Assembly (NCBI RefSeq): GCF_014643635.1
Contig: NZ_BMJV01000001.1
Span: forward strand, 874,925 to 938,924
Direction of reading: 5' to 3'
DNA length: 64,000 bases
Source: Salipiger pallidus
GTDB lineage: Bacteria > Pseudomonadota > Alphaproteobacteria > Rhodobacterales > Rhodobacteraceae
Part shown: positions 47,229-52,151 of the stretch, in pieces
How positions within the stretch are numbered: position 1 is the first letter of the stretch
Layout of the letters: every line of letters begins with the position of its first letter
The notes under the pieces: generated by a model
Databases searched by the model: none
Told to the model about the DNA's origin: nothing
Seen by the model: the letters and a program-made list of their open reading frames with translations, nothing else
Position numbers and translations under genes: made by a program

Positions 47229-47256
47229 AAAGGGCGCCCCGAATGGGACGCCCCTT
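47229..47256 (-). terminator. intrinsic terminator of the sulfate-activation gene
   Basis: On the minus strand AAGGG, a one-base bulge, CGTCCC-ATTC-GGGGCG-CCCTT, followed by a run of eight or nine T. It lies 20 bp past the stop. Confidence 0.88.
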
Positions 47257-47275: not shown

Positions 47276-49354
47276 TCAGAGACCGGCGATCAGACCCATG
47301 CTTTCCAGCTTCAGGATCACCTGATGGGCGCAGTTGTCGACCTCGGTGCCCTCGGTCTCGACCCGCAGCTCGGGGTTTGCCGGGACGTCGTAGGGATCGG
47401 AGATGCCGGTGAACTCCTTGATCTTGCCTTCGCGCGCCAGCTTGTAGAGGCCCTTGCGGTCACGGCGCTCGCATTCCTCGATCGTGGTGGCAACGTGCAC
47501 CTCGACGAAGGCGCCGAACTGCTCCACGTCCTCACGCACCGCGCGACGGGTTGCCGCGTAAGGCGCGATGGGTGCGCAGATCGCGATACCGCCGTTCTTG
47601 GTGATCTCGGACGCGACATAGCCGATGCGGCGGATGTTCAGGTCACGGTGCTCTTTCGAGAAGCCCAGCTCGGACGACAGGTTCTTGCGGACGATGTCGC
47701 CATCCAGAAGCGTCACCGGACGGCCACCCATTTCCATGAGCTTGGTCATCAGTGCGTTCGCGATGGTCGATTTGCCCGAGCCCGAGAAGCCGGTGAAGAA
47801 CACGGTGAAGCCCTGCTTCGAGCGCGGCGGCTTGGTGCGGCGCAGCTCGGCCACCACCTCGGGGAACGAGAACCATTCCGGGATCTCGAGGCCTTCCTGA
47901 AGGCGGCGGCGCAGTTCGGTGCCGCTGATGTTCAGGATGTTGACGCTGTCCTTGTCGGCAATCTCGTCGGCGGGCTCGTACTGGGCGCGCTCTTCAACGT
48001 AGACCATGTGTTTGAACGGCACCATCTCGATGCCCATTTCCTCTTCGTGCTGCTTGAAGAGTTCCTGTGCGTCATAGGGTCCGTAGAAGTCCTCACCGGC
48101 GGAATTCTTGCCGGGGCCCGCGTGGTCGCGGCCGACGATGAAGTGAGTCACGCCGTAGTTCTTGCGGATAAGACCGTGCCACACGGCTTCGCGCGGGCCA
48201 GCCATGCGCATTGCGAGCGGCAGCAGCGACATCGAAGTGGTCGAGGCCGGGTACTTGTCGAGAACCGCTTCGTAGCAGCGCACGCGGGTGAAGTGATCCA
48301 CGTCGCCGGGCTTGGTCATGCCAACGACCGGGTGGATCAGCAGGTTGGCCTGGCTCTCACGGGCGGCCCGGAAGGTCAGTTCCTGGTGCGCGCGGTGCAG
48401 CGGGTTGCGGGTCTGGAAGGCCACGACCTTGCGCCAGCCGAGCTTGCGGAAATAGGCGCGCAGCTCGTTCGGGGTGTCGCGGCGGGCGCGGAAGTCATAG
48501 TGCACCGGCTGCTGGATGCCGGTGATCGGGCCGCCGAGGTAGATCTTGCCCGCGGTGTTGTGCAGGTAGTTGACCGCCGGATGCGCGTCATCATCGGCGC
48601 CAAAGACCTTTTCGGCCTCGAGCGACTTGTTCGGCTCCCACTTGTCGGTGACGGTCATCGTGGCAAGGATCACGCCTTCCTGGTCACGCAGGGCGATGTC
48701 CTGGCCCAGCTCGATGCTGTCGGCGAACTTTTCGGTCACGTCGAGGGTGATGGGCATCGGCCAGAGCGCACCATCGGCAAGGCGCATGTCGTTGACGACG
48801 CCGTTGTAGTCCTCTTCGCCGAGGAAACCCTTGAGCGGGTAGAAACCACCGTTCATCAGCAGCTCGAGGTCGCAGATCTGGCGCGGGGTCAGGTCGTGGC
48901 TGACCAACTCGCCGGCTTCAACCTTCAGCTTCTGGGCACTGTCGTAGGACACGAACAGCTCGGGGATGGGTGCAAGATTGCTTTGCATTAGTCTGGTCCT
49001 TGTCGTTGTAGGGACGTAGCTGCTGGCAGAGCCTGTCAGCTCGGCGTGAAGCGCCTGGTATTCGCGGAATTTCCTTGCAAGGAAGCGGTCCGCAAGCCGG
49101 GCCTTTTCCACCGCGCCGCGCGATGTCAGCGCATAGGCGAAACGCTGGCGCCGGTCCGGCCCCTCACGTTCGCTGATCTTTATGAACCCTGCCTCGGCAG
49201 CTGCCCGAAGCTGTGCGTTGAGCCGCCCCAAAGATACCCCTATCGCCGCCGAGATCGCACGCTGCGATGCGTCCGGCGTCAGGTCGAGCTGGCGCAGGAG
49301 CTGGAAGAGGTTTCCCTCTTCCTCGGTCATGGATTTGGCGACGGGCGCGGACAT
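47276..49354 (-). CDS. MarR-type winged helix fused to sulfate adenylyltransferase/APS kinase
   Basis: Residues about 9-105 form a winged helix of the EPS-associated MarR type (RAISAAIGVSLGRLNAQLRA and YALTSRGAVEKARLADRFLA). Residues 123 to the end are a complete bifunctional enzyme. The ATP sulfurylase carries QTRNPLHRAH (about 313-322) and GRDHAGPG, and the APS kinase carries the P-loop GFSGSGKS (about 521-528) and DGDIVRKNLS. Together these make APS and then PAPS from sulfate. The junction TGSASSYVPTTTRTRLMQSN has no stop codon. MQSNLAPIPELFVSY at 48988 is the usual enzyme start and has AAGGA 8 nt upstream, so the normal 570-residue enzyme may also be made. Whether the 692-residue fusion is produced is unknown. 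A palindrome lies just upstream of the long start. Confidence 0.85.
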   Translation of the reverse strand: MSAPVAKSMTEEEGNLFQLLRQLDLTPDASQRAISAAIGVSLGRLNAQLRAAAEAGFIKISEREGPDRRQRFAYALTSRGAVEKARLADRFLARKFREYQALHAELTGSASSYVPTTTRTRLMQSNLAPIPELFVSYDSAQKLKVEAGELVSHDLTPRQICDLELLMNGGFYPLKGFLGEEDYNGVVNDMRLADGALWPMPITLDVTEKFADSIELGQDIALRDQEGVILATMTVTDKWEPNKSLEAEKVFGADDDAHPAVNYLHNTAGKIYLGGPITGIQQPVHYDFRARRDTPNELRAYFRKLGWRKVVAFQTRNPLHRAHQELTFRAARESQANLLIHPVVGMTKPGDVDHFTRVRCYEAVLDKYPASTTSMSLLPLAMRMAGPREAVWHGLIRKNYGVTHFIVGRDHAGPGKNSAGEDFYGPYDAQELFKQHEEEMGIEMVPFKHMVYVEERAQYEPADEIADKDSVNILNISGTELRRRLQEGLEIPEWFSFPEVVAELRRTKPPRSKQGFTVFFTGFSGSGKSTIANALMTKLMEMGGRPVTLLDGDIVRKNLSSELGFSKEHRDLNIRRIGYVASEITKNGGIAICAPIAPYAATRRAVREDVEQFGAFVEVHVATTIEECERRDRKGLYKLAREGKIKEFTGISDPYDVPANPELRVETEGTEVDNCAHQVILKLESMGLIAGL

Positions 49355-49373: not shown

Positions 49374-49387
49374 GTTCACGCGTGAAC
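49374..49387. promoter_or_regulatory. perfect palindrome upstream of the MarR-like start
   Basis: GTTCACGCGTGAAC is a perfect 14-bp palindrome 19 bp upstream of the MarR-like reading frame. Its position suits autoregulation by the winged-helix domain. Confidence 0.5.
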
Positions 49388-49505
49388 GCATCGCATGGTT
49401 CGCCGTTTCGCGGAACCCCTGATTTCATCAGGAGATCATTTTTCAGGCGATGCGTGCAAGGATCCGCCGACCGGGTCTCGGCTGTGCGCATCGCGCCAAC
49501 GAAAA

Positions 49506-49532
49506 CCGCTCCTGCGGCGGGCGCAGGAGCGG
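49506..49532 (-). terminator. trxB intrinsic terminator
   Basis: CCGCTCCTGCG with its complement CGCAGGAGCGG around a 5-nt loop, followed on the minus strand by TTTTCG. It lies 28 bp after the trxB stop. Confidence 0.85.
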
Positions 49533-51362: not shown

Positions 51363-52151
51363 TCACACCGCCGACAGCGATTCGAGCACTTCCCGGCTGG
51401 TGCGGGTCATCGTCAGTTCGCCAAAGTCCTGAACCACGTCCACATTGGGGAAGATCGACAGGAACTGCGCCCGCAACGCACCGTTCGACAGTTGCGACAG
51501 TGCCTTGCCCGGATGGTAGGTTTCCATCGCCATGCCGCCCACCATGATGGTGCCGTGATGGCCCAGCATAAGGTGATAGAGCTGCACCGCGCCCACCGGC
51601 GTCACCGTCACGATCCGGTCGCCGTCGGCGAAATCCGACACCGGGACCAGCACCCTGTCCTGCCCGATCAGCGCCTTGAGCCGGGGCCGCTGCACCACCA
51701 TGCGCGCCGCCGGACCGACCAGCACATCCCCCAGAGGGCGGCTTGGCCCGAAGGCATCCGAGGTGATCCGGGTGAGTGAGGCCAGCGTGGTGGCATCGTC
51801 GTCGATCCCCGGCACGTAAGTGGTCGAGCCGATCCACGTCACCGGCTGGCTGCCCGCGTTCGATTCGACGTAATCACCGGGGATGAGGTCCTCGATGGCG
51901 ACGGGGCCGCGCACCGTTGGGATGAGCGTACCGCGCGCAAAGGCAGTGGTTGCCTCTTCAAACAGAGGCGTGGCCGGGGCGACGCGGCTGGTGGTTGTGA
52001 TGGACAGATCGCTCAGCAGAGCGGCGGCCTCGTAGCGGCGCATGAGAGAGGATGCGCGTTGAGGCCGCCCGGCCCGGAGAGACGGTTCGCGAGCGATCTG
52101 AAGGGAAACCGCTTTGGTAACGGACGACTGCGACTCGTAGTGACGCGACAT
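51363..52151 (-). CDS. Hint-domain protein lacking the splicing cysteine
   Basis: A 262-residue protein whose residues about 70-220 form a Hint (hedgehog/intein) fold: FARGTLIPTVRGPVAIEDLI, GDYVESNAGSQPVTWIGS, then VLVGPAARMVV and YHLMLGHHGTIMVGGM. The nucleophile that starts the domain in self-processing members (Cys or Ser) is replaced by Ala-Phe-Ala, so autoprocessing is unlikely. There is no signal peptide. Many Rhodobacteraceae Hint proteins are linked to calcium-binding secreted proteins, but none is adjacent here. Function unknown. Confidence 0.8.
   Translation of the reverse strand: MSRHYESQSSVTKAVSLQIAREPSLRAGRPQRASSLMRRYEAAALLSDLSITTTSRVAPATPLFEEATTAFARGTLIPTVRGPVAIEDLIPGDYVESNAGSQPVTWIGSTTYVPGIDDDATTLASLTRITSDAFGPSRPLGDVLVGPAARMVVQRPRLKALIGQDRVLVPVSDFADGDRIVTVTPVGAVQLYHLMLGHHGTIMVGGMAMETYHPGKALSQLSNGALRAQFLSIFPNVDVVQDFGELTMTRTSREVLESLSAV

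Follow-up and report, generated by a model that had tools for sequence, protein, structure and literature searches.

A conserved in-frame fusion of a MarR-type domain with sulfate adenylyltransferase/APS kinase in Rhodobacteraceae and its predicted role in self-regulation

Our analysis describes a gene of Salipiger pallidus in which a MarR-type winged helix is joined in frame to a bifunctional enzyme of sulfate activation. The fusion is conserved across the family, the linker between the two parts is constrained, a ribosome site and a start codon are kept inside the frame at the head of the enzyme part, and a palindrome that goes with the fusion lies upstream of the gene. We regard it as likely that the gene encodes a self-regulating, sulfate-activating trigger enzyme, whose long form would repress its own gene while the internal start would provide the enzyme alone. 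Coordinates (Table 1) refer to the window, i.e. the whole stretch of 64,000 nucleotides that was analysed.

Table 1. Features of the fused gene and its surroundings, in positions of the window (residues are those of the fused protein)
Feature	Coordinates	Strand	Basis or remark
Fused gene, MarR-type winged helix + ATP sulfurylase + APS kinase	47276..49354	-	692 codons
MarR-type winged-helix domain, residues 10-107	49034..49327	-	AlphaFold2, Foldseek
Linker, residues 108-122, translated, without confident structure	48989..49033	-	dN/dS, pLDDT
Internal Shine-Dalgarno-like AGGA (AGG codon of Arg119 + next base)	48997..49000	-	98/99 distinct genes
Internal start codon, Met123	48986..48988	-	start codon in 99/99
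Sat/CysC enzyme expected from the internal start, 570 residues	47276..48988	-	NF004040 at 121-690
ATP sulfurylase part, residues 130-506	47837..48967	-	Pfam PUA_2, ATP-sulfurylase
APS kinase part, residues 514-665	47360..47815	-	Pfam APS_kinase
Predicted operator GTTCACGCGTGAAC, a perfect palindrome of 14 bp, 19 nt ahead of the first ATG	49374..49387	.	comparative conservation
Promoter-like block	49388..49416	-	deduced from conservation alone; the copy in the window differs from the consensus
Terminator-like hairpin directly after the fused gene, 12 pairs + T run	47229..47256	-	3 such sites vs 2.3 in shuffles, weak alone
Weak terminator-like hairpin after trxB, 5 pairs	49505..49518	-	shuffles give about as many

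The fused gene and its junction

The open frame runs on the minus strand from 49354 to 47276 and is followed by a stop. Pfam profiles match at residues 17-59 (HTH_24), 130-281 (PUA_2), 292-506 (ATP-sulfurylase) and 514-665 (APS_kinase), and the NCBIfam model NF004040 (bifunctional Sat/CysC) scores 1038.7 bits at residues 121-690, above its curated cut-off of 669 and over both catalytic parts. By these matches the bifunctional sulfate adenylyltransferase/APS kinase is complete (residues 121-690). In a 60-row alignment H320 and H323 are invariant, which we take to be the HxxH motif of ATP sulfurylase, as are G522 and S524-T530, presumably the Walker A motif of APS kinase. With the known bifunctional Sat/CysC enzymes (NF004040; solved relatives 2gks and the fungal 1i2d) the gene thus shares the whole-enzyme match and the catalytic motifs, whereas the N-terminal winged helix is found neither in the NF004040 model nor in unfused relatives, whose match to the query begins at about the internal start (near residue 123). 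The full-length AlphaFold2 model is of low quality over the enzyme (mean pLDDT 68.6) and was used for the MarR part and the linker only. Frame reading, Pfam and NF004040 together confirm what an earlier note had read from the letters, namely a frame of 692 codons without a stop that holds a MarR-type winged helix and a complete PAPS-forming enzyme.

Conservation of the junction was surveyed with a query comprising the MarR part, the linker and the first enzyme residues in 394 family genomes, roughly one for each genus. Close matches span the junction in 90 of these genomes, in one open frame without a stop (54-100% identity, E <= 5.2e-38); the frame is shorter in G075 (267 codons) and G423 (601 codons), presumably at contig ends, and one further, divergent fusion was found in G338 (locus L146). 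In none of the 90 close relatives does a stop part the MarR part from the enzyme or make it a separate gene. The next listed matches reach 33-49% identity (E from 2.7e-23), extend to about residue 102-117 and lie mostly in short open frames. All 24 of these weaker matches that were fetched are stand-alone domains, and the remaining ones were judged from the listed match alone. Twelve genomes of the survey hold both a fused and a stand-alone domain.

The 111 fused loci were reduced to 99 distinct genes. In these, dN/dS (taken from the 1270 of 4851 gene pairs that are of moderate divergence) is 0.39-0.44 for the linker, whose sequence varies among the genes, as compared with 0.19 in the MarR part and 0.10-0.14 in the enzyme. 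No linker among the 99 contains a stop, for which the neutral chance is about 1e-8 (945 parsimony changes, 1.9% giving stops), a rough figure from a weakly resolved tree. AlphaFold2 models give the linker a pLDDT below 50 from residue 111 or 114 on; judged by its substitutions, it nevertheless evolves as protein, and a dN/dS of about 0.4 together with the lack of stops argues that the fused chain is under selection. The true fusion that the earlier note had considered is thereby supported. Its two opposing readings, a MarR gene that lost its stop and a sequencing error that removed one, are rejected because the same stop-free junction recurs in 90 of the 394 family genomes.

Among the best 80 of 316 loci the nearest named relatives of the fused gene are those of Salipiger, and named carriers include Salipiger, Phaeobacter, Shimia, Marinovum, Loktanella, Aliiroseovarius and uncultured Roseovarius. 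The family also contains many unfused enzymes. A survey of 289 genomes of the class found the fusion in two of the four belonging to the window's family and in none of the 285 others, an absence that says little because a close full-length bare enzyme is also rare there (3/285) and scoring was limited to four candidates in each genome. Some listed loci have internal stops or partial N-terminal ends; of these, L139 and L147 are intact fusions, L146 is divergent and L141 decayed, and among the matches listed no MarR remnant lies upstream in L140, L142-L145 and L148-L151. An enzyme tree built from 101 fused and 38 unfused rows (139 in all) intermingles the two forms, with 27 changes, at least 8 of them forced by well supported branches, and this patchiness implies that the enzyme works without the fused domain. 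Taken with the MarR tree described below, the pattern suits, but does not prove, a single fusion followed by repeated loss in which the upstream palindrome would have been lost too; L146, with its long-branched MarR part, may be a second, independent fusion. Ten plasmid records, from Sulfitobacter, Roseobacter, Paracoccus and others, reach a query coverage of 80% or more; in each the match starts only at residue 109-129, and these Sat/CysC genes are apparently unfused.

In the window, trxB (TIGR01292) lies upstream on the same strand as the fused gene, and the downstream neighbour is an autotransporter-like gene on the opposite strand. A trxB-like motif precedes 73 of 110 fused and 18 of 27 unfused loci at a distance of no more than 1.2 kb, which means that both forms are often found at one location. 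The fused gene is probably a single-gene unit, with terminator-like hairpins after it and after trxB (Table 1). Near the locus a Hint-domain (Hint_2) protein is encoded on the minus strand (51363-52151).

The MarR-type domain and the upstream palindrome

AlphaFold2 models the MarR part (mean pLDDT 83.6) with helices at residues 11-25, 31-38 and 42-54, strands at 58-62 and 72-76 and a long helix at 78-107. In this model the domain shows the winged helix-turn-helix with flanking helices by which the MarR superfamily is recognized. MarR regulators are its best Foldseek matches in the PDB (E 1.2e-4) with moderate query TM-scores of 0.44-0.64; Sso10a-2, a different winged helix, reaches a higher target TM-score (0.73-0.74), and the Pfam MarR_2 match of the fused protein lies below the cut-off of that profile. 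The model TIGR04176 (MarR_EPS) gives 82.6 bits for the whole protein and 87.2 bits for the MarR part alone, both below its cut-off of 88. Close fused relatives fall on either side of this value, L065 passing with 91.1 bits and L059, L117 and L127 remaining below (83.7-85.6), while the divergent L146 scores 66.1 and two stand-alone relatives score 139 and 152; all 30 members scanned (27 fused, 3 stand-alone) are matched by the model. A tree of the MarR part places 98 fused and 24 stand-alone rows on opposite sides of one branch, with an SH-aLRT support of 90 that is below the star threshold and is drawn from few columns (96) for 122 rows.

The palindrome GTTCA-N4-TGAAC occurs within 150 bp upstream in 110 of the 111 fused loci (99 distinct), and the only exception, L044, has just 25 nt of upstream sequence. 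It was found upstream of none of 27 unfused loci, where the best match is 7/10 (at least two pairs among these loci, L014/L128 and L016/L134, look like one genome seen twice), and 12 further unfused loci carry not even the looser GTTC-N6-GAAC upstream. All 71 copies in the 973 kb around 70 named fused loci stand at the promoter of the fused gene. In the window's genus an extended form of 20 bp occurs, genome-wide, only at the fused-gene locus in nine of ten fused genomes (in the tenth, G003, the core is present and a flank is altered) and in none of ten genomes without the fusion, six of which possess the unfused enzyme. Within the window there is one match at up to one mismatch against 1.01 expected by chance; the palindrome would not stand out there, and its weight is therefore comparative. 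On this comparative footing it is likely an operator associated with the fusion. The gene control by the fused domain that the earlier note had envisaged finds only indirect support here, by way of the conserved operator-like palindrome.

Stand-alone relatives share this type of site: GTTC-N6-GAAC lies within 250 bp upstream in 13 of 24 and is absent in 11, so the site appears tied to the type of DNA-binding domain rather than to the enzyme. L146 has two palindromes upstream. These data predict GTTCA-N4-TGAAC, or its looser form GTTC-N6-GAAC, as a site of MarR_EPS regulators, a family named in the literature. The fused domain resembles the TIGR04176 regulators in the match to the model and in the palindrome type; it differs in being joined to an enzyme, in scoring around or below the cut-off, in having its own, not conclusive, branch of the tree and in lying outside EPS loci. 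In 98 aligned sequences conserved CTTT and TGTG-AT blocks end against the palindrome; a scan with the sigma-70 consensus found no promoter. Since the palindrome immediately follows a promoter-like block, one would guess at repression first.

One might argue that the palindrome is read by another regulator, e.g. a stand-alone MarR protein, and that the fused domain only aids folding or assembly. Stand-alone relatives with the same palindrome type do exist, both domain forms meet in 12 surveyed genomes, where cross-talk may occur, and the same core stands at the malic enzyme gene of the unfused genome G013. Yet the window's genome keeps the site although it holds no second match to the MarR part, and the site is absent from both sets of unfused loci (27 and 12). 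We consider this scenario unlikely.

A second start within the frame

In 98 of the 99 distinct fused genes AGGA stands 8 nt before codon 123, and this codon is ATG in 92, GTG in 6 and TTG in 1 of them, with no other codon found. Arg119 is encoded by AGG in 98 of 99 genes, in contrast to 28 of 5090 arginines elsewhere in the same genes. Where other Met columns vary, ATG gives way mostly to CTG, CTC or ATC, with two TTG and no GTG. After collapse to 89 clusters at 95% identity the counts are ATG 83, GTG 5 and TTG 1, with AGG in 88 of 89, and at any other residue an in-frame AGGA-N5-9-start is never seen in more than 4 of the 99 genes. Two aberrant loci add to this. In L141 (G199, a draft genome of 80% completeness) the MarR part is decayed across frames while the linker, the AGGA and the inner ATG are intact, so that the locus apparently represents a lineage living on the internal start alone. 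In L146 the linker is longer and unrelated, yet AGGA stands 7 nt before the inner ATG.

By this pattern of codons the internal ribosome site and start codon are under selection. The earlier note's remark that the usual enzyme start at 48988 keeps a good ribosome-binding site holds, the ATG at 48988 being codon 123 and the AGGA lying at 48997-49000. As AGGA and start codon are kept alongside a protein-like linker, one frame probably gives rise to two proteins, the fusion of 76 kDa and the enzyme of 63 kDa; this outcome, also listed in the note, is thus supported together with the true fusion and not instead of it. Other genes with two isoforms from an internal start likewise have a second ribosome site within the frame. 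The fused gene differs from them in its predicted products, which would be one enzyme in two forms, the first able to bind DNA and the second enzymatic only.

The internal AGGA could alternatively mark a translation pause between two folding domains, with only the 76-kDa protein being made. According to the accessible text of a study in Caulobacter, also an alphaproteobacterium, internal Shine-Dalgarno-like sites are mostly pause sites, and 75 alternative starts are reported there as well (PMC4117421). In contrast, a pause fits poorly with a codon 123 that is a start codon in all 99 genes, GTG and TTG included, with the constant spacing, and with the retention of AGGA and start in both L141, despite its decayed MarR part, and L146, despite its different linker. 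We judge a mere pause to be rather unlikely, and two products from one frame remain the reading we prefer. The word "sulfate" is absent from the accessible main text of a proteogenomic study of Ruegeria pomeroyi (PMC3305630).

A predicted self-regulating enzyme of sulfate activation

In the scenario we favor, the first start would yield the 692-residue protein, the MarR-type domains would be paired by the oligomeric enzyme, and the fusion would bind the palindrome at its own promoter and repress, rather than activate, the gene. The conserved internal start would yield the 570-residue enzyme without a DNA-binding domain, and the mix of long and short chains would tune DNA binding. Several observations weigh against this scenario: the patchy distribution of the fusion, the 11 stand-alone relatives that lack the site, the negative sigma-70 scan, the pausing at internal Shine-Dalgarno-like sites in Caulobacter, and a 14-bp core that is no commoner in fused genomes and also stands at a malic enzyme gene (see below). 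The DNA affinity of the fusion would most likely be set by the state of the enzyme (substrate, APS or PAPS bound). That the signal is APS or PAPS is a guess by analogy, helped by the fungal relative, which is regulated by PAPS bound to its APS-kinase-like domain and not through DNA (PMC3734648, as far as its accessible text goes). More tentatively, and with less confidence than in self-regulation as such, we suggest that DNA-binding and DNA-free versions co-assemble, the DNA-binding subunits reporting the APS/PAPS state to their own promoter without a separate regulator.

Alternatively, the fused domain might act less on its own gene than on others, for example on exopolysaccharide genes. Three stand-alone relatives examined adjoin genes of the UDP-glucose-dehydrogenase type, two of them epimerase genes as well. 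The core palindrome was sought in ten genomes of the genus (6 fused, 4 unfused). The 14-bp core has 2-3 copies in each fused genome vs 3-8 in the unfused ones and is not enriched. One copy lies just upstream of the NADP malic enzyme gene in all six fused genomes (G000: L199 ~2339, G000:C8:83838) and in the unfused G013; unfused G004 probably carries this site too, a 769-codon frame beginning at the core there. As a target of the fusion the malic enzyme gene was rejected, since the site is also present in unfused G013, and its occurrence in fused and unfused genomes alike means that another factor can use such sites. A third copy recurs in three of the six fused genomes, G005, G006 and G012 (L179, L190, L201, L202), which would speak for wider targets; in G005 and G012 it coincides with the end of a frame of 380 codons, and in G006 it is outside frames of at least 150 codons. 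Further copies in G000 and G001 sit inside long frames. Against regulation of other genes, the few copies in the fused genomes stand at the gene's own promoter, at the malic enzyme promoter, inside long frames or at the third position just described, and the extended form is found at the own promoter only. Control chiefly of other genes is quite improbable to us, and from the placement of these sites the fused domain looks to regulate mainly its own gene. The exopolysaccharide link proposed earlier is not supported either: the gene scores just below the TIGR04176 cut-off and lies next to trxB, not in an EPS locus, and the sole promoter site that goes with the fusion is that of the fused gene itself. 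An ordinary accident, i.e. a lost stop or a sequencing error, could point to the unfused forms in the same family but is already refuted by the recurrent junction and the purifying selection on MarR part and linker, and retains practically no probability.

There are known precedents both for enzymes that carry DNA-binding domains and for genes that have internal starts. Like the trigger enzymes PutA, BirA and NadR, the fused gene combines an enzyme and a DNA-binding-type domain in one chain; it differs in serving sulfate activation, in its MarR-type domain and in the conserved internal start predicted to give the enzyme alone. A response of transcription to its own substrate or product, as in a trigger enzyme, is hinted at solely by the palindrome at its promoter, as is binding of a palindromic operator by a dimer in the manner of MarR proteins. 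PutA of E. coli, according to the accessible text of PMC8249747, binds only the putA/putP spacer and controls transcription. The earlier note knew of no described protein of this layout, and none was found in the open-licence literature, a scope that leaves subscription journals mostly aside. On the control of sulfate activation in Rhodobacteraceae nothing was found in the open-licence literature, among the matches listed.

Rhodobacteraceae are abundant in the sea and important in the marine sulfur cycle. For this family the fused gene offers the hypothesis of self-repression by an enzyme, exerted by a domain of the same chain at a predicted site, and fused and unfused species form a natural comparison set. 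The second start would set the dose of the repressor form. If, as more tentatively suggested above, the two forms also co-assemble and report the APS/PAPS state, sulfate activation would read its own output without a separate regulator.
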